Below, in pieces: positions 3,143 to 48,424 of a stretch of DNA of 55,916 nt. Every line of letters starts with the position of its first letter. The stretch's first letter is position 1. The notes beneath the pieces were generated by a model. It saw only the letters and a list, made by a program, of their open reading frames with translations, did no database searches and was not told the origin of the DNA. The stretch comes from Sphingomonadales bacterium (GTDB lineage: Bacteria > Pseudomonadota > Alphaproteobacteria > Sphingomonadales > Sphingomonadaceae). The stretch spans positions 1 to 55,916 of the forward strand of contig JANXVZ010000020.1 in assembly GCA_025351405.1 (NCBI GenBank), written 5' to 3'. The translations under genes were made by a program, and so were the position numbers.

Positions 3143-4723
3143 CTATGCCGACCCATCCAATGTCCTTAGATCGAGACCGCGCGTTTCATTGCAGAACCGT
3201 ATCACCAGTATTAGCGCGAGCATCAACGGCAATATGATCATCAGCGCCGCCGCCCCGAGCAGTGGTACCAGCGCCAATATGCTCAGCAATTGGGCGAACA
3301 GGCCGCCAAGCTTGCTGCACGCCGCGACCCAGCCGGTGCCGCGCCCGCGGATATTGAGCGGATAGGTTTCGGCCGCATAGGGCAGCAGGATCGCCAGAAC
3401 GCCGTTGCTGCCAATGATCAGCAGCGCAATCGGCAGAACCGGGTTGCTACCTGGATCTTGATCGAGCAGCAGCACGCCGACCAGCCCGCCCAGCGTCACC
3501 ATGATCATGCTCGCCAGCGACCATTTCGTGCTCCAGCGACTGAATAGCAGCGCGACGACGAACACCGTGGGGAAGGCGATCAGCGCCGATTGCGCCAGAA
3601 GTTTCGACGACACCGCCATCGAATAGCCCCGGGCAATCAGGCTGGTTGGCAGCCAAAGCAACAGCCCGAAGTTGATCAGCCCCCAGGAGACGGCGACGAC
3701 GCTCAGCGCGATGGTCTTGCCGGCGAAACGCGCGCTGACCAAATTGCCGCGGGGCTTTTGGGCGCTGTGATGCGGGATGAAATCGAGATCCTCCTCGTCA
3801 TCGACCATGATGTGGCTGGTCGTGCCGAACCTTGCCATCACCGCCTGGGCTTCGGCCGTTCGGCCATGCGCCAGCAGGAACTTGGCCGATTCGGGGATCA
3901 GGCCGCCCATCAGGACCAGCGCCAGCCCGGTCGGCAGGTTGAGCAGCCACAGGATCCGCCAGCCGAACAGCGGCTGCAATACTGCCGAACAGCCGCTTGC
4001 GGCAAAATAGCCGCCGACGGCGCCCAGCCCCCCGACCAGCACCAGCGCCCAGCCGCGGTCGCGCGACGGCATCGTTTCCGCCAGCAACGCATAGGTGACG
4101 GGCAGCATTCCGCCTGCCGCCGCGCCCATCAGGAAGCACATCGCGATGTTCCAGTTCAGCGACGGCATCGCCCCGCAGATCGACGTGCCGACGAACATGA
4201 TCGCCGACAGCATGATCGACGCCTTGCGCCCATAGACGTCGGCGACCATGCCCCACACCACCGAACCGACCACCGTTCCCATCAACGCAAAGAAGGGCAC
4301 CAGCGCGGCGTGCGCTTTGCTGACGGCATATTCGGCAACCATGCCCGGCATGACAAAGCCGAGTGATGCCGGTTTCATCACGTCGATGCTGAGCGCCACC
4401 ACCAGCACCGCCATCAACCCCCAGTGCGCCGGCGACAAGGGCGCATCTTCGGGGGCGGCGACCGCGAGTCGGGGCACGCCGGCAAGGTGCGCGCCAACCG
4501 ATTTGGGGACCAGCCCGTAACCCGCCAGCGCAATTCCGGCGACAATCAGCAGCATGCCGAACATCATGCTGTTGTCCATCGCCATCCCGGCGAGATGAAA
4601 ATCCATGTCGCGCGCAACCCAGAGCATTGGCAAATGCAGCAAGACGCCGATCGTGACGGCGACGCAGCCTGCCGCAAACGCGGCCAGACTTGCCCTGCCG
4701 CGCAAGTCAATCACCCTGGTCAT
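3143..4723 (-). CDS. MFS transporter (sugar/metabolite type)
   Basis: A 526-residue major facilitator superfamily protein. Two extra hydrophobic segments precede a short hydrophilic linker (about residues 75-100); a 12-segment MFS core follows. The loop after the second core segment has the MFS signature VADVYGRK, and a later AETMPSRDRG segment resembles the sugar/SV2-type branch. It is divergent from the TonB-receptor gene across a 403-bp intergenic region with a LacI-type operator, so it could share regulation with the glucan locus, but the operator sits at the far (receptor) side. Substrate is unknown. Confidence 0.8.
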   Translation of the reverse strand: MTRVIDLRGRASLAAFAAGCVAVTIGVLLHLPMLWVARDMDFHLAGMAMDNSMMFGMLLIVAGIALAGYGLVPKSVGAHLAGVPRLAVAAPEDAPLSPAHWGLMAVLVVALSIDVMKPASLGFVMPGMVAEYAVSKAHAALVPFFALMGTVVGSVVWGMVADVYGRKASIMLSAIMFVGTSICGAMPSLNWNIAMCFLMGAAAGGMLPVTYALLAETMPSRDRGWALVLVGGLGAVGGYFAASGCSAVLQPLFGWRILWLLNLPTGLALVLMGGLIPESAKFLLAHGRTAEAQAVMARFGTTSHIMVDDEEDLDFIPHHSAQKPRGNLVSARFAGKTIALSVVAVSWGLINFGLLLWLPTSLIARGYSMAVSSKLLAQSALIAFPTVFVVALLFSRWSTKWSLASMIMVTLGGLVGVLLLDQDPGSNPVLPIALLIIGSNGVLAILLPYAAETYPLNIRGRGTGWVAACSKLGGLFAQLLSILALVPLLGAAALMIILPLMLALILVIRFCNETRGLDLRTLDGSA

Positions 4724-5033: not shown

Positions 5034-5061
5034 TTGACAATCAAACTCAACTGCATACTGT
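5034..5061 (+). promoter_or_regulatory. Predicted sigma70-type promoter of TonB receptor gene
   Basis: A perfect TTGACA -35 box (5034-5039) and a TACTGT -10-like box (5056-5061) are separated by 16 bases. Transcription would begin near 5067, inside the palindrome described next. The receptor ATG at 5127 is preceded by a strong GGGGGAGGATAT Shine-Dalgarno stretch. Confidence 0.55.
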
Positions 5062-5072
5062 GAACGTTCACA
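5059..5072. promoter_or_regulatory. LacI-type operator palindrome (receptor promoter)
   Basis: TGTGAACGTTCACA is a perfect 14-bp palindrome with a central CG, the form usual for LacI/GalR-family operators. It overlaps the predicted -10 box and start point, a classic repressing position. A related site (11 of 14 identical) lies at 16308-16321 upstream of the GH3 gene, and a LacI-family regulator is encoded between them at 14004, so that protein is the obvious ligand. Confidence 0.7.
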
Positions 5073-5126: not shown

Positions 5127-8102
5127 ATGTACCGTCAAAACGACCGTCGTTCGGCGACTCTTTTGGTAAGTGCATCGATGATTGCGCTGGCCGGGGTGTC
5201 TAGCGGCGCCTTGGCGCAGGAAAAGCCGATGGCCGCGCCCGTCGGCGCGGACAGCGAAGAAATCGTCATCACAGGCATTCGCGCCAGTCTGCTGGCATCG
5301 ATGGATGTCAAGCGTAGCGCTATCGGTGTCGTTGATGCCATCTCGGCGCTCGATATCGGCAAGTTCCCCGATACCAACCTCGCCGAATCGCTGCAGCGCA
5401 TCACGGGCGTCTCGATCGACCGCAGCAACGGTGAAGGTTCGAGCGTCACCGTCCGCGGCTTCGGCCCCGAATTCAACCTGGTGCTGCTCAACGGCCGCCA
5501 AATGCCGACCTCGACCCTGGGCGACGGCGCGAGCCCACCGGCTTCGCGCAGCTTCGATTTCGGCAACCTCGCATCCGAAGGCATTGCCGGCGTCGAGGTC
5601 TACAAGTCGGGCCGCGCCACGCTCGCCACCGGCGGCATCGGCTCGCTGATCAACATCAAGACCGCCAAGCCGTTGGATCGGCCCGGCCTCCACGGCAGCA
5701 TCGGCGCCAAGGGCGTCTATGACACCTCGCGCTTCGAGGGCAAGGGCGTCACCCCCGAAGTCTCGGGCATCATCAGCGACACCTTTGCCGACAACCGCAT
5801 CGGCATCCTCGTCAGCGGCTCGTACCAGGACCGCAAGGGCAGCCAGGCGGGCTTCAACGCCGGTTGGCGCGAAGGCTATCAGGGCAACGAAAACAACTGG
5901 GGCTCGCTCGCGCCCGCCGGCACCCCCGGCGCGGCCAAGATCACCAACCGCCCCGGCCCGGGCGATGTCTACCAGGTGACCCAGAACGCTGGTTACGATT
6001 TCACCAGCTTCGAGCGCAAGCGCATCAACGGCCAGGCCGTGCTGCAGGTCAAGCCGACCGACACGCTCGTCGCGACGGTCGACTACACGTTCTCGCAGAA
6101 CACCGTGGAATCGCGCACCAACAGCATCGGCGTCTGGTTCAACCACGGCGACACCTCGAGCAGCTGGACCAACGGCCCCGCCGCCGGCCCCAACTTCTAT
6201 GCCGAGGACTTCACCGCCGCTTCGGGCAAGGACCTCGCCATCACCGGCGCGGTCGCGGCGAACCGCACCATCAACCGCTCGATCGGCGGCAACCTCAAAT
6301 GGGATGGCCCCGGCGGTCTGCGCCTCGAGCTCGACGGCCACCACTCGACGGCGGAAAGCAAGCCCACCTCGCCCTACGGCAGCAATATCGCCGTCGGCAG
6401 CGCAATCTACGGCGTGGTCAGCCAGAAGGTCGACTACACGCACCAGATTCCGGTGATTTCGGCGACGCTTGCGCCCGGCATCGACCTGACGGCCGCGAAC
6501 ATCCGCCCCGCCGGCAACGCCTTCCGCAATGCCTATTTTCGCGACGAGATCAACGAAGTGGCGTTCAAGGGCGGCTATGATTTCGACAGCTCATTCATCG
6601 ACAGCCTCGATTTCGGCGTCACCTATACCCAGAACAAGGTCCGCTCGGCCTTCGGCGTGATCCAGAACGACACCTGGGGCGGCACGCTCTCGGCGGCCGA
6701 TACGCCTGACAGCCTCTACACGCTCACCAGCCTGCCGAACGATCTCAAGGGCGCCGAAGGCTATAATGCCAGCGGGATCATTCCGAACTACTTCAAGGTC
6801 GACACCACCGCGCTGATCAAGCTGCTCGACAGCCGGCTCGGGATCTGCGCCAAGTCGCCGACTGCTGGCAGCTGCCTCGCCACCTTCTCGGCCGATCGCA
6901 CGATCAACGAGAAGACCTGGGCACCGTACCTCCAGACGTCGCACGCGTTCGACCTGGGTGAGAACCCGGCGCATCTGCGTCTTGGCCTGCGCTATGAGAC
7001 AACCAAGATCTTCTCGCCTTCGCAGGTTCCGATCCCGCAGCGCACGATCTGGTCGGGCGGCAACGAGACCTCGATCGATTATGGCGATCCGCAGGTTATT
7101 TCGGCAACATCCTTGAGCGGAAAGTATCACAACTGGCTGCCTGCCATCGACTTCGACATGGCACCGATCAAGAACGTCAAGCTGCGCGCGTCCTACAGCG
7201 TGACGATCACCCGGCCTGACTACAACAGCCTGCAAGGCGGGCTGACGCTTGCGTCGCCGATCCGCATCGGCGGCAGCACCGCCTCCAACGGCAACGCGGG
7301 ACTCCTGCCCTTCAAATCGGACAACGTCGATCTCTCGGCCGAATGGTACTACGCGCCGACCAGCTACATTTCGGTCGGTTACTTCCACAAGGTCGTGAAG
7401 AACTTCATCGCGCAGACGCAGGTCAACCAGTCCGCGTTCGGGCTGACCAACGCCGCTGCCGGTGCCCGCGCTGCCGAAGCTCGCACCGCGCTCGGCCAGG
7501 ATGCAACCGCGCAGCAGTTGATCGATTTCATCGCGGCCAAGTATCCGGCCACAGCGGTGAAGGACGGGAGCGGCAACGTGGTCGGTATCGTCGGCCAGCC
7601 CGATGATCCGCTGGTCAACTTCGTGACCAACTTCCCGATCAATTCCGAGCAGAAGGACACCATCCACGGCTGGGAATTCGCGGTGCAGCACAGTTTCTGG
7701 GAAACCGGCTTCGGCACGATCCTGAACTACACCGTGGTCAAGAGCGATCATAACTACAACAATACGCTCAACCACACGATCACGCAGTTCGCCGTGCCCG
7801 GTGCCAGCAACAGCGCCAACGCCGTGATTTACTATGACAAGCATGGTCTGCAGGCCCGCGTGGCCTACAACTGGCGCGCCGGGTTCCTCGCCGGCTACGG
7901 TGTCGATCCCGCCTACGTCGATTCGTACGGCCAGTACGACGTGAGCGCGAGCTACGAGATCAGGAAGGGCATCACGATCTTCGGCGAAGGTATCAACATA
8001 ACCAGCGCCGATCGCCGCGGACACCAGCGCAACAGCCAGACCGTGACCTTCTCGCAACCCGGCTATGCCCGCTGGGCCGCGGGGGCTCGCTTCACCTTCT
8101 GA
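5127..8102 (+). CDS. TonB-dependent receptor (beta-glucan locus)
   Basis: A 991-residue outer-membrane receptor of the TonB-Xanth-Caul type. It has a signal peptide ending at ALA (residue 30), a TonB box EEIVITG (44-50), a plug domain including RITGVS and VRGFGPEFN motifs, and a long beta-barrel ending ARFTF with the C-terminal Phe needed for outer-membrane assembly. It should import oligosaccharides too large for porins using TonB/ExbB/ExbD energy. The following genes encode GH16 and GH3 enzymes, so a beta-glucan fragment is the most likely ligand. Its promoter carries a LacI-type operator and the gene is followed by a hairpin terminator, so it may be made in excess over the downstream proteins. 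Confidence 0.92.
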   Translation: MYRQNDRRSATLLVSASMIALAGVSSGALAQEKPMAAPVGADSEEIVITGIRASLLASMDVKRSAIGVVDAISALDIGKFPDTNLAESLQRITGVSIDRSNGEGSSVTVRGFGPEFNLVLLNGRQMPTSTLGDGASPPASRSFDFGNLASEGIAGVEVYKSGRATLATGGIGSLINIKTAKPLDRPGLHGSIGAKGVYDTSRFEGKGVTPEVSGIISDTFADNRIGILVSGSYQDRKGSQAGFNAGWREGYQGNENNWGSLAPAGTPGAAKITNRPGPGDVYQVTQNAGYDFTSFERKRINGQAVLQVKPTDTLVATVDYTFSQNTVESRTNSIGVWFNHGDTSSSWTNGPAAGPNFYAEDFTAASGKDLAITGAVAANRTINRSIGGNLKWDGPGGLRLELDGHHSTAESKPTSPYGSNIAVGSAIYGVVSQKVDYTHQIPVISATLAPGIDLTAANIRPAGNAFRNAYFRDEINEVAFKGGYDFDSSFIDSLDFGVTYTQNKVRSAFGVIQNDTWGGTLSAADTPDSLYTLTSLPNDLKGAEGYNASGIIPNYFKVDTTALIKLLDSRLGICAKSPTAGSCLATFSADRTINEKTWAPYLQTSHAFDLGENPAHLRLGLRYETTKIFSPSQVPIPQRTIWSGGNETSIDYGDPQVISATSLSGKYHNWLPAIDFDMAPIKNVKLRASYSVTITRPDYNSLQGGLTLASPIRIGGSTASNGNAGLLPFKSDNVDLSAEWYYAPTSYISVGYFHKVVKNFIAQTQVNQSAFGLTNAAAGARAAEARTALGQDATAQQLIDFIAAKYPATAVKDGSGNVVGIVGQPDDPLVNFVTNFPINSEQKDTIHGWEFAVQHSFWETGFGTILNYTVVKSDHNYNNTLNHTITQFAVPGASNSANAVIYYDKHGLQARVAYNWRAGFLAGYGVDPAYVDSYGQYDVSASYEIRKGITIFGEGINITSADRRGHQRNSQTVTFSQPGYARWAAGARFTF

Positions 8103-8137
8103 CGCCTTTACAACACCCTTGAGGGTCGCATGATCGA

Positions 8138-8172
8138 GAGCCGCACTGCCCCGCAATGCGGCTCTCTTTTTT
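8138..8172 (+). terminator. Rho-independent terminator/attenuator after TonB receptor
   Basis: A perfect 8-bp stem GAGCCGCA (8138-8145) / TGCGGCTC (8157-8164) with an 11-base loop is followed by TCTTTTTT. It sits between the receptor stop (8102) and the halogenase ATG (8210). No separate promoter for the halogenase is evident in the remaining 38 bases, so partial read-through is the simplest way to express the downstream genes. Confidence 0.8.
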
Positions 8173-8209
8173 GCTCAGACGGACAAATGTTCGGTATGGT
8201 CGCGCGGTC

Positions 8210-9760
8210 ATGAGCAAATCGGTCCAGCAGATTGTCATCGTCGGCGGCGGCACGGCCGGGTGGCTGGCCGCGTGCCTGCTGGCGGCAAAACTTCCGGGCC
8301 ATTCCGTCACGCTGGTGGAAGCGCCCGATATCCCGACCATCGGCGTCGGCGAAGGCACCTGGCCGACGATGCGCGAAACGCTCGCCACCATCGGCATTCC
8401 CGAAGCGGAATTCCTGCGCGAAGCCAGTGCCGCGTTCAAACAGGGCTCGCGCTTCGATGGCTGGGCCGATGGCGCTGCCACCGACAGCTACCTCCATCCC
8501 TTTACTGCGCCGCTCCCGGCCGAAATGCGCGAGCTTGCCGCAGCGTGGCAGGCTGGCGGGCGCGCCATGCCGTTTGCTGCGGCCATCACACCGCAACATG
8601 CCATATGCGTGCAAAATCTTGCGCCCCGCCAACGCGCCATGCCCGACTATGCGGGGGCGCTGAACTATGGCTATCACCTCGATGCCGGGAAGTTTGCAGC
8701 ACTGCTCATGCGCCATGCCACGGGCCGCCTTGGCGTCACCCGGATTGCCGCGGAAGTCACCGGCGTTGTCGCAGCACAAAACGGCGATATTGCGGCGCTG
8801 GAATTGCGCGATCGCCCCCCGGTTGCGGGCGATCTGTTCCTCGATTGCTCGGGCCAGTCCGCGATCCTGATCGGCGGGCATTGCGGCGCTGGCTGGGTCG
8901 ACCGCTCAGACGTCTCGTTCAATGACCGCGCGCTCGCGGTGCAAGTGCCCGTCGCGCCCGGCAGCCCGCTTGCCTCGCAAACCATCGGCACCGCGCACGA
9001 AGCGGGCTGGCTTTGGGACATTGGCCTGCCCACCCGGCGCGGCATCGGCTGCGTCTATAGCGCGCGCTTCCTCAGCGACGAGCGCGCCGCCGAAATCCTG
9101 CGCGCTTACGTGGCCGCCAAAGTGCCCGGCACTGATCCTGCCAGCCTGAAGCCGCGCAAGCTGGCCTTCGCCACCGGACACCGTGACCGCTTCTGGGTTG
9201 GCAACTGCCTCGCCGTCGGGCTCTCGGCCGGGTTCATCGAACCGCTCGAAGCCTCGGCCATCGTGCTGATCGAATTGTCGCTGAAAGCGCTTGCGGAAAA
9301 CTTCCCGCAAACGCGCGAGAGCATGGCCATTCATGCCGCGCGCTTCAACGAGGTGTTCCGCTACCGGTGGGACCGGATCGTCGAATTCCTCAAACTGCAC
9401 TATGTACTGAGCACGCGCACCGAGCCCTACTGGTTGGCGCAGCGCGCGCCCGCAAGCATTCCGCCGCGCCTTACCGAATGCCTCGCGCTGTGGCAGGATC
9501 AGGCCCCGTCCGCATGGGATTTGCCCCGGGTGGACGAGATGTTTCCCGCTGCCAGCCAGCAATATGTGCTGTATGGCATGGGTTTTCCCGTGCCGCTGGC
9601 GGGGGCCTCGCCCGCCACTGCCGCATCGCCATCCGGCACCGCGCGGCTGGGCGATATCAGCGCAAAGGCGCGCGCGCTCGCGGCAGCACTGCCCGCGAAC
9701 CGCGATTATTTCACCGCTCTGGCCGCGCAGGATGCGCCCCGCGCGGCGCAAGGAGCATAA
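8210..9760 (+). CDS. Tryptophan-halogenase-like flavoprotein 1 (divergent motifs)
   Basis: A 516-residue member of the flavin-dependent tryptophan halogenase family. The GxGxxG FAD motif (GGGTAGW, residues 12-18) and the lysine equivalent to the catalytic Lys of PrnA (K77, in AAFKQGS) are present. Two positions depart from the family: WxWxIP reads W267-L-W-D-I-G, so the proline is lost, and the PLES segment reads PLEAS, so the serine after the key glutamate (E347) is alanine. ATG 8210 is chosen because the FAD motif then lies at the usual distance from the N-terminus; an upstream in-frame ATG at 8156 falls inside the terminator. It may act on something other than free tryptophan, or not halogenate at all. 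Confidence 0.85.
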
Positions 9761-9766
9761 GGCCAG

Positions 9767-10486
9767 TTGAGCAACCACCAGATCCTCAATCCGGCCGATC
9801 ACGGCGGGCTGCGCGTCCATACCGGCGCAGGCGCAGCTTACGGCGACAACGTCATGGCCTGCCTGACGATGCCGGCCGAATTCCGCGAAGTGCAGGCGCA
9901 TTTTCCCATCGTGTTTCGCCGCGATGCCGAAACCGGCAAGTTCGCAGCGTTGGCGCTGTTCGGTTTTGAAGCGGGCGAAAACCTGTTTCTGAACGGCGGC
10001 ACGTGGGATGCGCGCTACCGCCCGATGGCGCTGGCGGTGCAGCCCTTCCTGATCGGCCGCCCATCTGCAGACGATGCTGCGCCGCAGGTCCATGTCGATA
10101 TGGACCATCCCCGGATTTCCGCCACCGGCGAAGGCATGCGCGTGTTCGATGAAGCTGGCGTGCCAACGCCGTGGCTCGAAGCCATCGCCACCAGACTTGG
10201 CGATCTCGACCATGCCTGGCGCGAAAGCACGGCGTTTTTTGCGGCGCTCGAAGCCTATGAGCTGGTCGAGCCGTTCAGCCTTGAAGTCACGCTCGATAGC
10301 GGCTCGATCCAATCGCTGGTCGGCTTCCAGACGATCCACGAAGGCCGGTTTGCCGCGCTTGACGGCGATGCTTTGCACACGTTGATGGCCGAAGGACACT
10401 TGCTGCGCATCACCATGGTGCTGGCCTCGCTCTCTCAGTTTGGTTCGCTGGTTGCCCGCAAGAATGCCAGGGAAGCCGGTGGCTGA
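9767..10486 (+). CDS. SapC family protein
   Basis: A 239-residue protein matching the SapC family, with N-terminal LNPADHGGLRV and a MALAVQPFLIG segment typical of the group. The name comes from a Campylobacter S-layer locus, but the biochemical function is unknown. In Sphingomonads, Caulobacter relatives and Xanthomonads SapC genes are regularly next to TonB receptors and halogenase-like genes, as here. The start is TTG (9767), six bases after the halogenase stop, with AAGGAG at 9749-9754 upstream. It overlaps the next gene, which supports one transcription unit. Confidence 0.85.
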   Translation: MSNHQILNPADHGGLRVHTGAGAAYGDNVMACLTMPAEFREVQAHFPIVFRRDAETGKFAALALFGFEAGENLFLNGGTWDARYRPMALAVQPFLIGRPSADDAAPQVHVDMDHPRISATGEGMRVFDEAGVPTPWLEAIATRLGDLDHAWRESTAFFAALEAYELVEPFSLEVTLDSGSIQSLVGFQTIHEGRFAALDGDALHTLMAEGHLLRITMVLASLSQFGSLVARKNAREAGG

Positions 10487-11510
10487 GGCCGATACCTCGA
10501 TTTTTGCCGCCATGCCTGCGGTGATCGAGCGCGAGGCTGCGGATGCGGCCGCGCTCGATGCGCTGCTGCAAGGCGCGCGTGCGCCGTTCGTGATCCGCGG
10601 GATCGCGGCAAACTGGCCGCTGGTGCAAGCCGGACTCATCTCCCCACGCGCCGCGCGTGACTATCTCGTCCAGCATGCGCGCAACGTACCGTTTGCCGTC
10701 TCGATCGGGCGGCCGGGGCAGGACGGCCGCCTGTTTTATGACGCGGCTATGGACATGAATTTCCATGAGGCGCGCGGCAAGCTTGCCGATATCCTCGGCG
10801 GCATCGATGCCAATGAAACCCGCGCCGATCCGCCAACCATCTACCTCGGCTCGATCGACGTGCCGACCCATTTCGAGGGAGTCGATGCGGAAAACCACCT
10901 CGATCTCGGCGCACGCAGTCCCATTGTCAGCCTGTGGATCGGCACGCAGACGCGCATTGCCGCGCACAATGATTTTCCGGACAATCTTGCCTGCTGCGTG
11001 GCCGGGCGCCGCCGCTTCACGCTGTTCCCGCCCGATCAGTTTGCCAACCTCTACCTCGGCCCGATCGACAACACGCCCGCAGGCCGCGCGGTGAGCATGG
11101 TCGATTTCCGCGCGCCTGATTTTGCCGCGCACCCGCGCTTTGCCGATGCGCTGGCCCATGCCGAGGTGGCGGAGCTGGAACCGGGCGACGCGCTGTTCAT
11201 ACCCTCGATGTGGTGGCACCATGTCGAAGGTCTCGCGCCTTTCAACATCCTGCTCAACTATTGGTGGCGCGATACCCCGCGCTTCCTCGGCCAGCCCCAG
11301 GACGCGCTGAACCACGCGATCCTTTCGATCCGCGATCTGCCCGCAGCGGACAGGGCGATCTGGCGCGCGCTGTTCGACCATTATGTGTTTGCGAACAGCC
11401 CCGCGATGATCGAGCACATCCCGGAAAGCGGCCGCGGCGTGCTGGCGCCGCTTGACGCCGAGGCCGCGGGTCGGCTGCGGTCCTTTCTCCTCAGGACATT
11501 GAGCCGATGA
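10464..11510 (+). CDS. JmjC/cupin-like Fe(II)/2-oxoglutarate-type oxygenase
   Basis: A 348-residue cupin-like (cupin_8/JmjC) protein. The facial triad is visible: H168 and D170 in AAHNDFPDN and a distal His in MWWHHVEG, with a conserved GRRRFTLFPPDQ strand between them. That suggests a working iron/2-oxoglutarate oxygenase such as a protein or small-molecule hydroxylase. The start overlaps the end of sapC by 23 bases; ATG 10464 is preferred over an upstream in-frame start at 10440 and a GTG at 10479. It ends with an ATGA overlap with the second halogenase, so the two are translationally coupled. The substrate is unknown; linkage to a TonB receptor hints at modification of an envelope protein or an imported glycan. 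Confidence 0.82.
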   Translation: MPGKPVAEADTSIFAAMPAVIEREAADAAALDALLQGARAPFVIRGIAANWPLVQAGLISPRAARDYLVQHARNVPFAVSIGRPGQDGRLFYDAAMDMNFHEARGKLADILGGIDANETRADPPTIYLGSIDVPTHFEGVDAENHLDLGARSPIVSLWIGTQTRIAAHNDFPDNLACCVAGRRRFTLFPPDQFANLYLGPIDNTPAGRAVSMVDFRAPDFAAHPRFADALAHAEVAELEPGDALFIPSMWWHHVEGLAPFNILLNYWWRDTPRFLGQPQDALNHAILSIRDLPAADRAIWRALFDHYVFANSPAMIEHIPESGRGVLAPLDAEAAGRLRSFLLRTLSR

Positions 11511-12997
11511 CGAACGAATATAAAAAGCGCCGTGTCGTGATCGCCGGCGGCGGCACCGCGGGCTGGATGGCCGCCGCGGCCTTGGCGCGCACCATGGGCG
11601 GCTCCATCGAACTGACCCTGGTCGAATCCGATGCCATCGGCACGATTGGCGTGGGCGAAAGCACGATTCCGCCGCTAGTCACCTACAACCGCCTGCTCGG
11701 CATCGGTGAGGCCGAATTCATGCGAGCGACGCAGGCGACCTTCAAGCTGGGCATCGAATTCGAGAACTGGAAAGCTGAGGGCGAGCGGTATTTCCACTCG
11801 TTCGGCACCACCGGCCGCGACCATTGGTCGGCGGGCTTCCAGCATTTCTGGCTGCACGGCCTCGACAATGGACATGGGCATAGCTTTGACGACTATTGCA
11901 TCGAATTGCAGGCCGCGCGCCAGAGCAAGTTCGCGCACCTGCCCGATGACCGCATCAACTATGCTTACCAGCTCGATTCAAGCCTGTATGGCGCCTATTT
12001 GCGCAGACTCGCCGAGGCCGATGGCGCGCGCCGGGTCGAAGGCAAGATTGCAGAAGTGCAGCTCCATGCCGAGACCGGCCATATCGCCAGCCTGCTGCTG
12101 GAGTCCGGCCAACGCATCGCAGGGGACCTGTTCCTCGATTGCACCGGCTTCCGTGCGCTGCTCATGGAAGGCGCGCTCCATGTCGGTTACGATGACTGGA
12201 CGCACTACCTCCCCTGCGATTCAGCGATTGCGGTGCAGACCGCCAGTGTCCGCCCGCCCGTGCCCTATACCCGCGCCATCGCGCACGACGCAGGCTGGCA
12301 GTGGCGCATCCCGCTCCAGCACCGGCAGGGCAACGGCATCGTCTATTGCAGCCGCTATCTCGATCGCGACCGCGCGCTCGACCGGCTTTTTTCCAGCATC
12401 GAAGGCGAACGACTGACCGAGCCGAACGTCATCCGCTTCACCACCGGCGCGCGGCGCAAGCAATGGCACCGCAACTGCATCGCGGTCGGCCTGTCGGGCG
12501 GGTTCATGGAGCCGCTCGAATCAACCAGTATCCACCTGATCCAGCGCGCCATCTTGCGGCTGATCCGCATGCTGCCGATGGGCGAGGTAAGCGAACGCGA
12601 CGTGGCAGAGTTCAACGATCAGCAAATGACCGACATGGAGCAGATCCGCGATTTCCTGATCCTCCACTACAAAGCCACCGAGCGGCGCGACAGTCCGTTC
12701 TGGCGCCAGTGCGCCGCTATGGAAATCCCCGAAAGCCTGACCCAAAAGATCGAACTGTTCCGCGAAACGGGTCGCGTGTTCCGCAAGAATGAGGAATTGT
12801 TCGTCGAGAACAGCTGGGTGCAGGTGATGATGGGCCAGGGCATCATCCCGCGCAGCTATCACCCGGTTGCAACCAAACTTTCCGGCGCTGAGCTTGACCA
12901 TCTGCTGGGCAGCCTCCGCACGAATGTCGCCAAGACCGTTGCCGGACTGCCCGATCATCATGCCTATGTTGCCCGTTACTGCGGTGCCGAGCGCTGA
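11507..12997 (+). CDS. Tryptophan-halogenase-like flavoprotein 2 (intact motifs)
   Basis: A 496-residue flavin-dependent halogenase family member with all the hallmark residues: GGGTAGW (residues 14-20), catalytic-type lysine K80 (ATFKLG), W264-Q-W-R-I-P (the WxWxIP signature) and PLESTS with E338/S339. It should therefore be able to make hypohalous acid from FADH2, O2 and halide, passed through a tunnel to the lysine. A flavin reductase is not encoded nearby. It overlaps the JmjC gene by 4 bases. It shares family but not motif detail with the first halogenase, so the pair has diverged in role. Confidence 0.88.
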   Translation: MTNEYKKRRVVIAGGGTAGWMAAAALARTMGGSIELTLVESDAIGTIGVGESTIPPLVTYNRLLGIGEAEFMRATQATFKLGIEFENWKAEGERYFHSFGTTGRDHWSAGFQHFWLHGLDNGHGHSFDDYCIELQAARQSKFAHLPDDRINYAYQLDSSLYGAYLRRLAEADGARRVEGKIAEVQLHAETGHIASLLLESGQRIAGDLFLDCTGFRALLMEGALHVGYDDWTHYLPCDSAIAVQTASVRPPVPYTRAIAHDAGWQWRIPLQHRQGNGIVYCSRYLDRDRALDRLFSSIEGERLTEPNVIRFTTGARRKQWHRNCIAVGLSGGFMEPLESTSIHLIQRAILRLIRMLPMGEVSERDVAEFNDQQMTDMEQIRDFLILHYKATERRDSPFWRQCAAMEIPESLTQKIELFRETGRVFRKNEELFVENSWVQVMMGQGIIPRSYHPVATKLSGAELDHLLGSLRTNVAKTVAGLPDHHAYVARYCGAER

Positions 12998-13014: not shown

Positions 13015-13944
13015 TTGGCGCTGGCGCTTGCACCGGCGAGCGCGGCGGTGGCGGTCGCCGACAACGGCTGGGCGCTGGTCTGGTCGGACGAATTCGATGG
13101 CAACCGGATCGATGCCGCAAAGTGGAGCCTTGCCGTCGATTGCTGGGGCGGCGGCAACAACGAACGCCAATGCTATACCGCGAGCGGTGCCAATGCCGCC
13201 GTCAGCGACGGGATGCTGACGATCACCGCCCTGCACCAGACGGTACGCGGTCCGGCGCTGCCAGAGTCGCTGCGGGAGGGTAAGGCAGGTTCCGCCGCCA
13301 TGGCCAGCAAGCCCTATAGTTCGGCGCGGTTGAGCACGCGCGGCAAGGCCGATTGGCGTTACGGTCGCATCGAGGTCCGGGCGAAACTGCCCGAGGGGCA
13401 AGGCACCTGGCCAGCGATCTGGATGTTGCCGCGCGACGACCATTACGGCCGCTGGGCGGCATCGGGCGAAATCGACATCATGGAGGCGGTCAATCTGGGG
13501 GTGCCGGTGGCGACCTGCGGCGATTGCCGTGAAGATCACATCCTCGGGACGCTGCATTTCGGCGGGGAAGCGCCGCACAACACGCATCGGGGAGCCGAAA
13601 CCAACTTGCCACCCAGCGTTGACGGTTTTCACGTGTTCGGCATCGAATGGCGCGCCGGTCAGATCAGCTGGTCGGTCGATGGGCAGGTCTATCAGACGCA
13701 GACCAGCACGGACTGGAAGACGCTTTCCGCGCTTGCCGCACCCGGCAGTGGCGCGCCGTTCGACCGGCCATTCTATCTGGTGCTCAATCTCGCCATCGGC
13801 GGCGGCCTGCCCGAGGGGCGCAATTCGGGCGGCGTGGCCACCAGCGGCTTTCCCAAGCGGCTGCTGATCGACTGGGCGCGAGTTTACCGCTGCACGGCGG
13901 ATCCCGAAACCGGCCTGGGCTGCGCGGCACCCCCCGTCAGATGA
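13015..13944 (+). CDS. Secreted GH16 endo-beta-glucanase (laminarinase type)
   Basis: A glycoside hydrolase family 16 protein with the catalytic GEIDIMEAV motif (E152 nucleophile, E157 acid/base, numbering from TTG 13015). The extra Met in ExDxME is the beta-bulge form typical of laminarinases rather than lichenases, so endo-1,3-beta-glucan cleavage is favoured. The start is uncertain. From TTG 13015 the signal peptide lacks its basic n-region; reading upstream in frame restores Ala-Arg-Leu-Leu-Gly, but only CTG 12994 or ATT 12997 is available, at the halogenase stop. Secretion, to periplasm or outside, is expected either way. Confidence 0.88.
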   Translation: MALALAPASAAVAVADNGWALVWSDEFDGNRIDAAKWSLAVDCWGGGNNERQCYTASGANAAVSDGMLTITALHQTVRGPALPESLREGKAGSAAMASKPYSSARLSTRGKADWRYGRIEVRAKLPEGQGTWPAIWMLPRDDHYGRWAASGEIDIMEAVNLGVPVATCGDCREDHILGTLHFGGEAPHNTHRGAETNLPPSVDGFHVFGIEWRAGQISWSVDGQVYQTQTSTDWKTLSALAAPGSGAPFDRPFYLVLNLAIGGGLPEGRNSGGVATSGFPKRLLIDWARVYRCTADPETGLGCAAPPVR

Positions 13945-16335: not shown

Positions 16336-18846
16336 ATGGGGCCGGTTTTTCGGGGCATCGTGCTGGGCACGGCGGCATTGCTTGCTGGTTCGGCGCTGGC
16401 GCGAACCGCTATCACCCCTCAGCCGACGCTTGGCGCCGTGGCAAATAGCGCCAATTGGCCACGCGCACACAGCCCGGCAGCGTTGACCGACCCCGCCACC
16501 GAAGCGCGGATCAGCGCCTTGATGGCCCGGATGACGATTGAACAAAAGGTCGGCCAGACGATTCAGGCCGATATCAGCACGTTCAAGCCGCACGATCTCG
16601 CCGCCTATCCACTTGGCTCGGTCCTCGCCGGTGGCAACAGCGGACCGTACGGCAATGAACGCGCCAGCGTCGCCGATTGGGATCGGATGGTCGGGGAATA
16701 CCGCGCGGCGTCGCTCGTCCCGCAGGCCAATGGCGTGGCGATTCCGATCATTTTCGGGGTGGATGCCGTGCACGGCCACAACAACATCCCCGGTGCCACG
16801 TTGTTTCCGCACAACATCGGCTTGGGCGCGGCGCACGATGCCGATCTGGTCCGGCGCATCGGCCAGGCGACAGCGTCGGAAGTGTCGGCGAGTGGCATCG
16901 AATGGACCTTTGCGCCGACCCTGGCGGTGCCGCAGGATTTGCGGTGGGGGCGTAGCTATGAAGGCTATTCGGCCGATCCGGCGCAGGTGGCGGACTATGC
17001 CCGGGCGATGACGCTGGGTCTGCAGGGCGCGTTGGTGGCGGGTGAGCCGCTCGCCACCGACCGGGTGGCGGGCACCGCCAAGCATTTCATTGCCGATGGC
17101 GGCACGCTGGGCGGCAAGGACCAGGGCGATGCACAGGTATCCGAGGCGGCGCTGATCCATACCCATGCGCCGGGCTATCCGGCAGCGATCGATGCCGGGG
17201 TGCTGACCGTCATGGCCAGTTTCTCGAGCTGGAACGGGGCCAAGAACCATGGCAACCGCTCGCTGCTCACCGACGTGCTGAAGGGTGCGATGGGTTTCGA
17301 GGGCCTGCTGGTCGGCGACTGGAATGGCCATGCGCAGATCGCCGGATGTTCGGTCACCGATTGCCCCGCCGCGCTCAATGCCGGCCTCGACATGTATATG
17401 GCTCCCGATAGCTGGAAGGGGTTGTTCAACAATCTGCTCCGCGAAGTCCGCACGGGCGAAGTGCCGATGGCGCGGCTCGATGATGCGGTGCGCCGGGTTC
17501 TGCGGGTCAAGGCCAAGCTCGGGATGCTCGATGCTGCCCGGCCCACGCTGCACAATTATGACGCGCTGGGCGCACCGGCGCATCTCGCATTGGCGCGGGA
17601 AGCCGCCGCCAAATCGCTTGTCCTGCTCAAGAACAACGGCACGCACCTGCCGATCCGTCCGGGTGCGAAGGTGCTCGTCGCCGGAGACGGGGCGGACAAT
17701 CTCGGTATGCAGTCGGGCGGCTGGACCATCACCTGGCAGGGCACCAATCTGACCCGCGCCGATTTTCCCAATGGCCGCTCGATCTGGGACGGAATCAACG
17801 CGGCCGTCCTGCAAGCCGGCGGCACAGCCAGGCTGTCACCCGACGGCACGTTTACCAGCAAGCCCGATATCGCGATCGTCGTGTACGGCGAACTGCCCTA
17901 TGCCGAATTCCAGGGCGATATTCCCACACTCGACTATCAGCCGGTGTTGGCCACCAACCTCGCGCTGATCAAGCGGCTGAAGGCCGCAGGTATCCCGGTC
18001 GTATCCGTGTTCCTGTCGGGCCGGCCACTCTTTACCAGCCCCGAAATCAATGCGTCCGATGCGTTTGTTGCAGCATGGCTGCCGGGTAGCCAGGGCGACG
18101 GCCTTGCGGATGTGCTGATCGCCGGGCGCGACGGCTTGCCGAAGCGTACCTTCAGCGGCCGCCTGAGCTTCCCATGGCCCGCCGACGCGCGCTCGCCGCT
18201 TGCAGGCGCGCTGTTTCCGGCGGGCTACGGCCTGCATTATGGCGATTCGAGGCGCGTTCCGGTGCTGGACGAAACGCTCAGGGTGGATCTTGCCGCGGCA
18301 CTCAATGTCGAAACCTACTTCGCGGCCGGGCGCGCCCGGTCACCATGGACGATGACGGTCATCGATGACGGCGGTTCGCGCACGGTCGAATCGGCCGCTG
18401 TGACCAGTCCGCTCGGCCATGTTGCCGCTCGCGGCGTGGACATCGCAGCGCAGGAAGACGCCAAGGCGCTGGTTTGGACCGGCCCTGGCCGCGTCAGCAT
18501 CGATGGCCCGCCGGCAGATCTGGGACGTCAATTGACAGGGGCCTTCGCGCTGCGCCTCGACTGGCGGATCGACGCAAGGGGAACGGGACGGACGACCCTC
18601 GCGTTCGGTGACCGGCCGCTCGACATTACGACGATGATCGCCGGCATGCCCGTCGGCACCTTGACCAGCGTGCGCATACCCTTGCGCTGCTTTGTCGACG
18701 CCGGCGCCGACATTGCCCGGATCGGCAATGCGATGCGGATGTCGGCCGATGCCGGTCTTGCCTTGATCCTGCTTTCGGCGAAGGTCGAACCCGTGGGCGA
18801 CAATCCGCCCTGTCCGCCACCGGCACTGGTACCGGCACCAAAATAA
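16336..18846 (+). CDS. Secreted GH3 exo-beta-glucosidase (ExoP-like)
   Basis: An 836-residue glycoside hydrolase family 3 enzyme with a signal peptide (cleavage near ALA, about residue 23), the GH3 (alpha/beta)8 domain with the nucleophile in GDWNGH (D328), the C-terminal alpha/beta sandwich, and an extra beta-rich C-terminal domain from about residue 640. This layout fits exo-1,3/1,4-beta-glucan glucohydrolases such as ExoP. It would trim oligosaccharides from the GH16 enzyme to glucose in the periplasm. A frame open back to 15733 is spurious; ATG 16336 follows an operator and an AAAGGG site and begins the signal peptide. The sugar porter gene is 49 bases downstream. Confidence 0.9.
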   Translation: MGPVFRGIVLGTAALLAGSALARTAITPQPTLGAVANSANWPRAHSPAALTDPATEARISALMARMTIEQKVGQTIQADISTFKPHDLAAYPLGSVLAGGNSGPYGNERASVADWDRMVGEYRAASLVPQANGVAIPIIFGVDAVHGHNNIPGATLFPHNIGLGAAHDADLVRRIGQATASEVSASGIEWTFAPTLAVPQDLRWGRSYEGYSADPAQVADYARAMTLGLQGALVAGEPLATDRVAGTAKHFIADGGTLGGKDQGDAQVSEAALIHTHAPGYPAAIDAGVLTVMASFSSWNGAKNHGNRSLLTDVLKGAMGFEGLLVGDWNGHAQIAGCSVTDCPAALNAGLDMYMAPDSWKGLFNNLLREVRTGEVPMARLDDAVRRVLRVKAKLGMLDAARPTLHNYDALGAPAHLALAREAAAKSLVLLKNNGTHLPIRPGAKVLVAGDGADNLGMQSGGWTITWQGTNLTRADFPNGRSIWDGINAAVLQAGGTARLSPDGTFTSKPDIAIVVYGELPYAEFQGDIPTLDYQPVLATNLALIKRLKAAGIPVVSVFLSGRPLFTSPEINASDAFVAAWLPGSQGDGLADVLIAGRDGLPKRTFSGRLSFPWPADARSPLAGALFPAGYGLHYGDSRRVPVLDETLRVDLAAALNVETYFAAGRARSPWTMTVIDDGGSRTVESAAVTSPLGHVAARGVDIAAQEDAKALVWTGPGRVSIDGPPADLGRQLTGAFALRLDWRIDARGTGRTTLAFGDRPLDITTMIAGMPVGTLTSVRIPLRCFVDAGADIARIGNAMRMSADAGLALILLSAKVEPVGDNPPCPPPALVPAPK

Positions 18847-18895: not shown

Positions 18896-20191
18896 ATGGC
18901 ATTGCAACCCGGCGCGACAAGCAGCACCGACCCATATCCCGACACCGGCGACGGAGCGCATATCGATGCGCCCGACCTGCGGTTGTTCGTCATGGCGCTG
19001 TTCTTCATTTTCGGCGGCATCACCAGTCTCAACGACGTGATCATTCCGAAGTTGAAGGAGCTGTTCACGCTCAACTACGCGCAAGCCATGTTGGTTCAGT
19101 CTGCGTTTTTCGGTGCCTATCTGGTCGTCTCCATTCCCGGTTCGGCGCTGGTCCGCAAGGTGGGCTATATGCGCGGCGCTGTGGTCGGGCTGCTGACGAT
19201 GATGGCCGGCTGCCTGCTGTTCATTCCCGCATCTTCGAGCGCCACCTTCGGAATGTTCCTGCTGGCGCTGTTCGTGCTCGCCAGCGGCATCACCATCGTC
19301 CAGGTCGTGTCCAATCCGCTGATCTCGCTTCTGGGCCCGGCGCGCACCACCCACAGCCGATTGACCTTTGCCCAGGCGTTCAACTCGCTCGGCACCACCT
19401 TGTTTCCCTATGTCGGATCGGTGCTGATCCTTGGCGGCCTCGCAACCGTCAACACAGCCGACTTGTCCGGGGCCGCGCGTGACGCCTATCGCGTCGCCGA
19501 AACCCAAGTCGTGGTGCACACTTATCTCGTGCTTGCAGCGGCGTTGGCACTGGTTGCGGGGGCGGTGTGGCTGCGGCGCAACCGCCTGTCAGGCGAAGTG
19601 CATGACGAAGGCTCGGTCCTCAAGAGCTTCGATCTGCTCAAACGGCCGCGCTTCGGTTTCGGTGCGGCATGCATATTCCTGTATGTCGGGGCCGAAGTGG
19701 CCATCGGCTCGTTGATCGTCAGCTACCTGATGCAGCCCGCCGTCCTGGGGCTGACCCAGCAGGCCGCCGGCAAGCTGATACCGATTTATTGGGGCGGCGC
19801 ATTGGTCGGGCGGTTCATCGGCTCGGCAGTGTTGCGGCTTGCCAGCCCGGGCAAGGTTCTGGCTGCCGCAGCCATCGGGGCGATCACATTGATTCTCGTG
19901 TCTGCCAACGCCACGGGCCAGCTCGCGGGATACAGCTTGCTGGGTATCGGGCTGATGAACGCGATCATGTTCCCGACAATATTCAGTCTCGCTTGCGAAG
20001 GCCTGGGGCGGCGAGCGGCGGAGGGCTCCGGACTGATTTGCGTTGCCATCGTCGGCGGGGCGGTGATTCCACCGCTGACCGGTCAGCTTGCCGATTCGAG
20101 CGGCAGCCTGGCGCTCGCACTTATGGTGCCCGCAGCTTGCTACGCAGCCATCGCCAACTACGGGATCTTCTTTCGGCGACCTGCACAGTAG
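18896..20191 (+). CDS. GluP/FucP-type glucose/galactose MFS porter
   Basis: A 431-residue, 12-segment MFS porter of the FucP/GluP group. It shows FIFGGITSLNDVIIPKLK in the first segment, QSAFFGAYLVVSIPG in the second, QVVSNPLI in the fourth and TFAQAFNSLGTT in the fifth, all conserved in hexose:H+ symporters of this family. It would carry the glucose made by GH3 across the inner membrane. GGGGAGA precedes ATG 18896. It ends the locus and is followed by the opposed tRNA-Arg gene. Confidence 0.87.
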   Translation: MALQPGATSSTDPYPDTGDGAHIDAPDLRLFVMALFFIFGGITSLNDVIIPKLKELFTLNYAQAMLVQSAFFGAYLVVSIPGSALVRKVGYMRGAVVGLLTMMAGCLLFIPASSSATFGMFLLALFVLASGITIVQVVSNPLISLLGPARTTHSRLTFAQAFNSLGTTLFPYVGSVLILGGLATVNTADLSGAARDAYRVAETQVVVHTYLVLAAALALVAGAVWLRRNRLSGEVHDEGSVLKSFDLLKRPRFGFGAACIFLYVGAEVAIGSLIVSYLMQPAVLGLTQQAAGKLIPIYWGGALVGRFIGSAVLRLASPGKVLAAAAIGAITLILVSANATGQLAGYSLLGIGLMNAIMFPTIFSLACEGLGRRAAEGSGLICVAIVGGAVIPPLTGQLADSSGSLALALMVPAACYAAIANYGIFFRRPAQ

Positions 20192-29165: not shown

Positions 29166-29187
29166 GGCTTGCTCCTGCATTCGTGTT

Positions 29188-37623: not shown

Positions 37624-38505
37624 ATGCCCGCACGCGCCTATTGGACCGGACAGTTGCGCCTGGCGCTGGTTTCGATCCCCGTCGAGATTTACGCGGCAAC
37701 CCGCAGCAACGCCGGCATCGCGCTCAACCAGATCCACAAGCCAAGCGGCAAGCGCATCAAGCTGGAAAAGACCGTGCCCGGTATCGGCGAAGTGGCCGCC
37801 GAGGATATTTCCAAGGGGTATGAGGTCGAAAAGGGTGAATATGTGCTGTTGAGCGACGCCGAGCTCGACGAGGTCAAGCTGGAAAGCCGGCAGACCTTCG
37901 AGCTGGTCCAGTTCGTCGACGCCAGCGAAATCGATGCGATCTATTTCGAAAAGCCCTATTATGTGGTGCCCAAGGACGACCTTGCCGAGGAAGCCTTTGG
38001 CGTGATCCGGGACGCGCTGAAGGCGGCCAAAAAGGTCGGGCTGGGGCAGTTGGCGATGCGTGGCCATGAATATCTGTGCAGCCTCAAGCCCTGCGGGCGC
38101 GGCATGGTGATGGAAACCCTGCGCTATGCCGACGAGGTCAACAAGGCGCAGCAATTCTTCCGCGACATCCCCGATGCCAAGCCGCCGGCGGAATTGCTCG
38201 AACTGGCGACCGCGCTGATCGACAAGCGCACGGCGGCGTTCGACCCCGAGAAATTCCATGACCGCTATGACGAAGCCCTGCGCGCCTTGATCGACACCAA
38301 GCGCGGCAAGAAGCCGGCCCGTGCCGAAACCCAGAGCGTCAAGCCGTCCAATGTCATCGACCTGATGGCCGCACTGAAGCAGTCGATCGAAAAAGGCGCC
38401 AAGGAGCCCGCCAAAGCCTCGGGATCGGCCGCTGCCAAGCCCGTTGCCAAAGCCGTTGCCAAGCCCGTTGCCAAGGCGCCCCGGCCGGCGCGCAAACGTG
38501 CATGA
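37624..38505 (+). CDS. ku: Ku protein (non-homologous end joining)
   Basis: A 293-residue prokaryotic Ku. The beta-barrel core begins YWTGQLRLALVSIPVEIY and includes KPYYVVPKDD and LGQLAMRGHEYL. A lysine/alanine-rich tail (AKPVAKAVAKPVAKAP) follows, of the kind that binds DNA or LigD. Homodimers thread onto broken DNA ends and recruit LigD. The stop overlaps the ligD ATG by 4 bases, so the two are made together. Confidence 0.96.
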   Translation: MPARAYWTGQLRLALVSIPVEIYAATRSNAGIALNQIHKPSGKRIKLEKTVPGIGEVAAEDISKGYEVEKGEYVLLSDAELDEVKLESRQTFELVQFVDASEIDAIYFEKPYYVVPKDDLAEEAFGVIRDALKAAKKVGLGQLAMRGHEYLCSLKPCGRGMVMETLRYADEVNKAQQFFRDIPDAKPPAELLELATALIDKRTAAFDPEKFHDRYDEALRALIDTKRGKKPARAETQSVKPSNVIDLMAALKQSIEKGAKEPAKASGSAAAKPVAKAVAKPVAKAPRPARKRA

Positions 38506-48393: not shown

Positions 48394-48424
48394 CGCCATA
48401 CCTCCATCAGGGCCACGCGCGCCC

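Follow-up and report, generated by a model that had tools for sequence, protein, structure and literature searches.

A compact gene unit joining a TonB-dependent receptor with SapC, an FIH-like oxygenase and flavin-dependent halogenases in a Sphingomonadales carbohydrate locus and its relatives

Flavin-dependent halogenases of the BrvH and Xcc4156 type have an open active site and act on indoles, not on free Trp, and their authors suggest peptides as substrates (PMC7336383, PMC5945002), while the native substrate of either enzyme is not known (PMC7336383). A Trp inside a peptide is the target of the flavoenzyme MibH (PMC7336383, PMC5945002). Carbohydrate utilisation (CUT) loci of Xanthomonas and other polysaccharide utilisation loci with TonB-dependent receptors (TBDRs) bring together a receptor, a regulator, glycoside hydrolases (GH) and a transporter (PMC1790865). 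The DNA analysed here, referred to as the window (55,916 nucleotides, contig JANXVZ010000020.1 of the Sphingomonadales assembly GCA_025351405.1, which is contig 25 of a 3.02 Mb genome), contains a predicted carbohydrate utilisation locus with the plug and barrel of a TBDR and, in the same operon, a GH16 enzyme, a LacI-family regulator and a GH3 enzyme (the latter by homology). Four further genes stand between receptor and GH16. The TBDR, SapC, a 2-oxoglutarate (2OG) oxygenase resembling FIH and a complete halogenase (HAL2) form one compact gene unit, in which a second halogenase-like gene (HAL1) is optional, and the same unit is found in more than one class, accompanied by differing carbohydrate enzymes. 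In the window it comprises:

5127 to 8102, + strand: TonB-dependent receptor (TBDR), TIGR01782 575 bits
8136 to 8174, + strand: hairpin resembling a terminator, in the gap from receptor to HAL1; its 14-bp stem has one mismatch, its loop is CCC and a T6 run is present
8210 to 9760, + strand: HAL1, flavin-dependent halogenase-like protein, PF04820 388 bits
9767 to 10486, + strand: SapC family protein with a TTG start, PF07277 206 bits
10464 to 11510, + strand: Cupin_8/JmjC 2OG-Fe(II) oxygenase, FIH-like, PF13621 228 bits when scanned from a start at 10440
11507 to 12997, + strand: HAL2, flavin-dependent halogenase of the Xcc4156 type, PF04820 626 bits

Genes, those in the loci of relatives included, were called with a home-made scorer of open reading frames (ORFs) and no published gene finder, and TBDR labels are to be taken as lower bounds. 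The TIGR01782 and Pfam matches bear out the families that the initial annotation had assigned to the four genes between receptor and GH16. The operon runs in the order TBDR-HAL1-SapC-Cupin_8/JmjC-HAL2-GH16-LacI-MFS-GH3-MFS (MFS, major facilitator superfamily), with a palindrome ahead of it. Successive gaps amount to 53, 6, -23, -4, 17, 59, -4, 68 and 49 bp when HAL1 is started at 8156. However, 8156 sits inside the hairpin of 8136-8174, and the ATG at 8210 is therefore preferred as the most likely start, giving gaps of 107, 6, -23, -4 and 17 bp from TBDR to GH16. Two junctions inside the set overlap, SapC/Cupin_8 by 23 bp (with the 10464 start) and Cupin_8/HAL2 by 4 bp. A small peptide gene hidden in the cassette was considered as well and is ruled out by these receptor-to-GH16 gaps.

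Conservation of the cassette, or module, was evaluated around the best 80 of 534 confirmed SapC relatives from named genomes; since the module SapC itself was the query, this set informs on the constancy of the module and not on its frequency. The genomes are mostly Novosphingobium, Sphingopyxis, Sphingomonas, Sphingobium and Erythrobacteraceae, with one Caulobacter (L060), and all 80 loci display the same cassette as far as their contigs extend. The receptor lies within the stretch in 78 of the 80, as TBDR-HAL1-SapC in 67 and as TBDR-SapC without HAL1 in 11, the HAL1-less loci retaining 49-272 bp between receptor and SapC. Sphingobium lactosutens DS20 (L096), for instance, is without HAL1, and S. 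algorifonticola (L101) carries it. Cupin_8 is missing only at contig ends, and L114 is the only locus that lacks HAL2 although its stretch would have room for it. The full TBDR-HAL1-SapC-Cupin_8-HAL2 order is found in the window and in L005-L009, the order without HAL1 in L010-L013, and the order without either halogenase in L014. Among 59 genomes of the same family, SapC was detected in 58, PF04820 in 43 (40 over the cut-off) and Cupin_8 in 40 (37 over the cut-off). On a receptor tree of 77 rows made by a quick method, four of them the distant receptors of L011-L014, the presence of HAL1 changes nine times, at least eight of these changes being forced by well-supported branches. We read them as mostly losses, although the count alone does not separate gains from losses. 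Thus, HAL1 switches eight to nine times while SapC and Cupin_8 stay, which identifies it as an optional add-on.

A search of the phylum with HAL2 gave matches in 44 of 349 genomes, and neighbourhoods were read at high-scoring places in 20 genomes, 19 of them outside the class (L299 lies inside it), a sample that leans to close relatives. TBDR, SapC, Cupin_8 and HAL2 occur together in 16 of these 20 loci, 10 of which also carry HAL1: nine show the full order, one (L289) has the five genes in another order, and six miss only HAL1 (in L295 the receptor is called as two ORFs). The remaining four consist of L301 and L302, with TBDR and HAL2 only, L286, with HAL2 alone, and L297, a 6-kb contig on which two HAL2-type ORFs flank SapC and neither Cupin_8 nor a TBDR is present. 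Relatives of GH16 or GH3 appear in only 8 of the 20 loci, against 16 for the cassette, so that receptor and cassette are the more constant part; and because the same set follows related receptors in more than one class, the unit is a real one. These surveys uphold the initial view that the genes work as one receptor-tied set co-occurring with the receptor, the order being kept in the 80 loci and in the phylum sample and the operator-like palindrome standing, within the set, only ahead of the receptor. They do not fit the description of the genes as inserted in a glucan locus: a local insertion is ruled out, this arrangement being the usual one among relatives in both samples.

The motifs of both halogenases were compared in one alignment of 253 halogenase-type proteins, with the outcome that the initial annotation had described for the window. 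HAL2 is complete, with the GxGxxG motif as GGGTAG, the catalytic Lys, WxWxIP as WQWRIPL and PLES in EPLESTS. HAL1 keeps GGGTAG, Lys and Glu, and reads WLWDIGL and EPLEASA, thus lacking the Pro of WxWxIP and the Ser of PLES. WxWDI[GA]L is found together with EPLEASA in 64 of the 67 module HAL1s of the best-80 loci. Module HAL2s read WQWRIPL in 67 of 68 and WRWRIPL in one, WxWxIP being thus kept in all of them, and the 67 with WQWRIPL carry EPLESTS (50), EPLEATT (11), EPLESTA (5) or EPLEPTS (1). As EPLEATT occurs in 11 of 68 module HAL2s, loss of the Ser is neither specific to HAL1 nor diagnostic. The closest Protein Data Bank (PDB) chains are 9LTB (E 1e-219) and then 2PYX (E 1e-131) for HAL1, and 6Y1W (Xcc4156, E 2e-194), followed by 9LUQ and 6FRL (BrvH, E 1e-129), for HAL2. 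The missing Pro and Ser of HAL1 are, as read from these alignments, a clade signature common to solved structures and not decay, and HAL1 as a decayed gene is rejected on this clade-wide signature, its match in 9LTB and 2PYX, and the pattern of its presence on the receptor tree. HAL1 is named only as a halogenase-like flavoprotein (PF04820) of putative activity. WxWxIP has been suggested to block monooxygenase activity (PMC5945002); its Pro being absent, HAL1 could be a monooxygenase. Weak NCBIfam matches connect both HAL1 and HAL2 with QhpG, labelled a flavin-dependent monooxygenase, at about 40 of 240 bits and hence far under the cut-off, and HAL1 with the maturase LodB. QhpG modifies a Trp of a protein.

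The catalytic Lys is lost in 9 of the 253 halogenase-type proteins, none of them a module halogenase. These nine paralogues (L018:5994, L019:10035, L020:9856, L043:5198, L044:9035, L141:7375, L166:10105, L169:7071 and L176:5165) are each strongly diverged and lie in clusters of two to four halogenase genes, mostly beside a large TBDR (none is labelled at L169), and they would be better candidates for non-halogenating partners than HAL1. In Sphingomonas sediminicola (L112:7443-12239), HAL1 and HAL2 are each split into two ORFs, while SapC and Cupin_8 are whole, reflecting either decay or sequencing error.

SapC matches PF07277 across all 220 of its 220 profile positions. Its AlphaFold2 model, built from 80 sequences, is confident (mean pLDDT, the per-residue confidence, 94.4; pTM, the predicted template-modelling score, 0.89), and a Foldseek search of the PDB with it returned no convincing match (best E 0.32); a sequence search of the PDB likewise found no solved relative (best E only 0.68). 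A second SapC clade is widespread in sphingomonads, and in 11 of the 13 loci read (L021, L024, L241-L248 and L250-L252, the exceptions being L245 and L252) it lies directly behind an FAD-linked oxidase (FAD, flavin adenine dinucleotide; PF01565/PF02913). Both SapC clades therefore accompany flavoproteins, a company that may be the best hint to SapC function. In the second-clade locus of the window's own genome, cytochrome b561 and a TBDR come next. Regarding Cupin_8, the JmjC iron triad noted initially is present as H168-x-D170...H252 and is invariant in 83 of 83 relatives, as are N265 and W267, and the best PDB match is FIH (E 2e-19). None of the four cassette proteins had a match in PADLOC-DB, which was searched for known anti-phage defence models, and the idea of a known defence system is rejected on this ground.

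The remaining features around the unit are:

3143 to 4723, - strand: divergent MFS transporter, PF07690 94 bits, PF00083 72 bits
5059 to 5072, no strand: perfect palindrome TGTGAACGTTCACA, a probable operator of the LacI family whose distance to the downstream receptor start is 54 bp
13015 to 13944, + strand: GH16 glycoside hydrolase, PF00722 58 bits
14004 to 15068, + strand: LacI-family regulator, PF00356 and PF13377
15065 to 16267, + strand: MFS transporter, PF07690 60 bits
16308 to 16321, no strand: second operator-like site TGATAACGTTCTCA before GH3, 3 mismatches, on its own at chance level
16336 to 18846, + strand: GH3-type beta-glucosidase, homologous to L028:5556-7778 (GH3 in Pfam), kept in relatives; its family follows from this homology, the Pfam scan having been made on the L028 homologue
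18896 to 20191, + strand: MFS transporter, PF07690 62 bits

The palindrome at 5059-5072 is the kind of site that LacI-family proteins bind, and binding of LacI may be expected there. In 62 of 70 relatives the region upstream of the receptor contains the 10-mer AACGTTCACA. TGNNAACGTTNNCA precedes the receptor in 24 of 72 loci and GH3 in 51 of 54, and was found before none of the other cassette genes (HAL1 0/68, SapC 0/81, Cupin_8 0/76, HAL2 0/74). Downstream of the receptor, 46 of 79 loci have a terminator-like hairpin (43 of 68 with HAL1 and 3 of 11 without it), whereas shuffling each stretch once yields one in only 1 of 79; such a hairpin follows HAL1 in 1 of 68 cases and SapC (0/81), Cupin_8 (0/76) and HAL2 (0/74) in none. 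A stricter general terminator scan, listing 13 sites in comparison with a shuffled mean of 9.9, does not include 8136-8174, probably owing to its loop range of 3-8 and to the mismatch, which interrupts the stem. The hairpin may serve attenuation, providing much receptor and little enzyme.

In order to place the cassette among halogenase loci in general, 119 distinct genes of at least 380 amino acids from 36 genomes were collected around PF04820 matches, some fragmentary matches being left out. Of the 119, 56 have a labelled TBDR at a distance of 500 bp or less, 78 at 3 kb or less and 106 anywhere in the stretch; genes of one cluster are not independent in these counts, and about 4.8% would be expected within 500 bp, a rough value derived from 28.7 Plug matches per genome in 20 genomes. 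Among the 13 halogenases left, five (L027, L028, L031, L036 and L153) adjoin proteins with Pfam TBDR barrel domains. Enzymes near such halogenase/TBDR pairs include GH32 (own genome, L022), GH97 with GH13 (own genome, L023; also L025), GH39 (L026), GH67 (L011) and an alpha-galactosidase (L017), and in one and the same genome HAL2-type relatives, 47-50% identical, stand beside receptors with fructan (GH32) and with starch (GH97/GH13) enzymes. In general, the cargo enzymes vary and the receptor stays. The window's own genome has three receptors that exceed the TIGR01782 cut-off, of which two adjoin halogenases and one (L178) does not. The starch-type loci L025, L029, L030, L033 and L039-L042 contain a TBDR, a HAL2-type gene and enzymes (GH13, GH13 and GH97 in L025), and close with a second halogenase gene, of intermediate profile score (~395-441 bits) and roughly 5-8 kb distant from the receptor.

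No signal peptide is evident by eye at the N-termini of the window's HAL1, SapC, Cupin_8 and HAL2. A crude measure of N-terminal hydrophobicity flags 16% of HAL1s, 22% of SapCs, 5% of Cupin_8s and none of the HAL2s (0%), and the same measure flags 95% of 39 GH16s and only 49% of 81 receptors, so that as a test it is a weak one. The four proteins therefore look cytosolic, with weak support, and a cytosolic site would make the substrate either a small molecule or a protein before its export. Our tentative proposal, which we consider possible rather than probable, is a receptor-linked oxidative cassette whose cytosolic proteins act on the receptor polypeptide prior to or in the course of its export. 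Sugar would relieve LacI, and the receptor would be made in excess, since a terminator-like hairpin often follows its gene, read-through supplying the four proteins in small amounts. The role of SapC would be to present or hold the receptor polypeptide, HAL2 would halogenate, probably brominate, a Trp, and the FIH-like enzyme would hydroxylate Asn, Asp or His, while a second oxidation would come from HAL1, which lacks the Pro suggested to block monooxygenation. As a result, an extracellular loop would be tuned, either for sugar binding or for escape of the receptor from phages and bacteriocins. Such a mark would not be required for uptake, given the loci that lack both halogenases.

Receptor sequences were then explored for residues that might carry the mark. 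The AlphaFold2 model of the receptor has a pLDDT of 84, and the 50 PDB matches listed for it are TonB-dependent receptors. W517, in IQNDTWGG, is presumably located just after a long strand in a long extracellular loop of this model. It is invariant in 71 of 71 receptors (alignment A3) and equally in all 41 receptors whose locus contains SapC and Cupin_8, which range down to 33% identity and include other-class receptors at 35-43% identity; N or D occupies position -1 or -2 in 39 of these 41. No other Trp is invariant in both alignments: W916 is kept in 71/71 and 40/41, and W642, with 41/41, falls under 90% in A3 and to 83-91% in the HAL1 comparison and is not leaned on. A more specific form of the proposal, in which the [N/D]-(x)-W-G around W517 would receive two oxidative marks before export, halo-Trp and hydroxylated Asn/Asp, that retune sugar binding or hide the receptor, appears quite unlikely as it stands. 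In one other receptor type (n=22), a strong Cupin_8 match is missing from the genomes of all four sequences that have Thr in place of Asn at -1, and from those of only 4 of the 18 that have Asn there (two-sided Fisher p 0.0096, from a hand-made post hoc table in which some genomes are counted twice); the four Thr sequences look closely related and may represent one event.

In favour of the receptor as target, no Trp was found within four columns of W517 in any of 19 verified TIGR01782-matching receptors without halogenase, although this control differs in receptor subfamily; the control consists of L178 and of 18 receptors from genomes whose best PF04820 match is <33 bits (two of them fall short of the TIGR01782 cut-off), these 18 remaining from 30 control loci after 7 were dropped for frame length and 5 by the hidden Markov model (HMM) test. 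Several other observations weigh against modification of the receptor. W517 is kept at the halogenase-less loci L014, L114 (probably the same locus as L307) and L308, and in L319, where no cassette gene is present in the stretch (its genome has the cassette at L312). No receptor residue tracks HAL1 when 65 receptors with it are compared with 11 without (best column difference 0.57), the most uneven Trp being W849, at 68% with HAL1 vs 36% without. In the starch receptors, for which a class-wide search gave matches in 2 of 142 genomes, the WG motif lies in another loop, and its Trp is kept in L213, from a genome without PF04820 match, and in L217, L218 and L231, with no halogenase nearby; it is absent in six remoter receptors without halogenase (26-33% identity) and in L156, which has one. 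Kept in four halogenase-less loci and absent from L156, this Trp gives no proof of a target. WG counts of 51/62 vs 5/30 in controls are confounded by receptor type and by some short or wrong control frames. Moreover, no TBDR is present in the stretch read for 8 of the 119 halogenases, none was seen near most copies of the second SapC clade other than that of the window's own genome, and Cupin_8 genes away from SapC have a TBDR near in only 1-2 of 8 cases (by a home-made HMM that may miss some). Thus, W517 may be a candidate site and could equally be a plain sugar-binding residue. The residue tests neither show nor exclude modification of the receptor, which, though unproven, is retained as our best guess.

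Among the alternatives, the halogenases and the oxygenase might be flavin-, O2- or 2OG-bound sensors or chaperones for the assembly of a very large TBDR, with SapC as adaptor. SapC and Cupin_8 do stay where both halogenases are absent (L014, L114/L307, L308), Lys-less paralogues occur in multi-halogenase clusters, and the second SapC clade adjoins an FAD-linked oxidase in 11 of 13 loci. However, WxWxIP persists in all 68 module HAL2s (the PLES Ser does not, being Ala in 11), no module halogenase lacks the Lys, and the universal HxD...H of Cupin_8 would be needless in a scaffold, so that we regard this possibility as rather doubtful. The cassette could also make or modify a cytosolic small aromatic compound, of indole or phenol type, for signalling or export under glucan, its link to the receptor being one of shared regulation only. 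HAL2-type enzymes brominate free indole in vitro (PMC5945002, PMC7336383), the cytosolic appearance of the four proteins would suit such a role, and MFS genes flank the operon. Nevertheless, no aromatic biosynthesis gene is found among the scanned operon genes, the indole activity is low and its authors doubt indole as the natural substrate (PMC5945002), and it is the receptor that accompanies the cassette constantly from locus to locus. This explanation is therefore deemed unlikely.

That the cassette modifies imported cargo, such as an aromatic-linked or lignin-like glycan, is suggested by its position inside a glucan operon. Yet the proteins look cytosolic, in comparison with the GH16s, and same-family halogenases adjoin receptors for fructan and starch, glycans without an aromatic group, which makes it very improbable, the more so as GH16 and GH3 are absent from many cassette loci. 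Of the oxidative tailoring of receptor or glycan advanced in the initial annotation, the oxidative chemistry thus stays plausible from the kept catalytic residues, while an aromatic-linked glycan as its target is disfavoured. The same annotation regarded the odd halogenase as a non-halogenating partner. For HAL1 alone as a degenerate halogenase, structural partner of HAL2, the missing Pro and Ser might speak, but their signature is fixed in the module and shared with 9LTB and 2PYX, HAL2 remains in most HAL1-less loci while HAL1 comes and goes, and some HAL1-labelled genes accompany a TBDR with no other halogenase in the stretch (L028, L031, L036). We consider this extremely unlikely. Modification of the receptor accordingly remains the leading explanation.

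Elsewhere in the window, two adjacent membrane proteins are encoded upstream on the - strand (235-1506 and 1508-2734), the first of them GT87 and the second alike by eye. Further along lie a large catalase (27012-29180, -), a LigD-type DNA ligase (38502-41027, +) and a molybdopterin-binding oxidoreductase (46141-48399, -).

The literature offers partial counterparts. An occurrence of SapC and halogenase-like genes near TonB receptors had been taken initially as established; no such statement was found in the open literature searched, and no open-access paper was found that joins SapC, halogenase and TBDR, or SapC with either of the two, subscription papers being outside this scope. The Xanthomonas loci resemble the window in combining receptor, regulator, hydrolases and transporter, and differ in that halogenase, SapC and cupin do not appear in the main text describing them (PMC1790865). 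MibH and QhpG belong to the same flavoprotein superfamily as the halogenases, the MibH structure 5UAO being matched by both HAL1 and HAL2 and QhpG only weakly, but the cassette of the window has no room for a peptide precursor gene. FIH, a JmjC protein hydroxylase, aligns with Cupin_8 over 121 residues that include the HxD, WWHH and N-x-W region, and does not align outside this stretch, a likeness drawn from sequence alone; the residue that we take to be the 2OG-site Lys of FIH is Arg in the window protein. HAL1 aligns nearly full length with 9LTB and 2PYX, both deposited as tryptophan halogenase structures, and shares W.WDI.LP and EPLEASA with them. No paper describing 9LTB was found in the open literature, and 2PYX is referred to as an unnamed, unpublished halogenase (PMC7336383).

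The closest counterparts of HAL2 are Xcc4156 and BrvH (6Y1W, 6FRL), open-site indole brominases; HAL2 is of their type and has all motifs, and the BrvH gene also adjoins a second halogenase gene (PMC5945002); on the other hand, neither TonB nor SapC is mentioned in the main text of the two reports (PMC5945002, PMC7336383). The surprising aspects of the present cassette are that it is conserved across classes and that it is linked to the receptor and not to the cargo enzymes. SapC gains a confident model and a set of partners, and, if the receptor were indeed the target, this would constitute enzymatic halogenation of a bacterial surface protein. In comparison with the described enzymes, BrvH and Xcc4156-type halogenases are here placed in a conserved unit with a TBDR, SapC and a hydroxylase-like protein, which narrows the search for their substrate.

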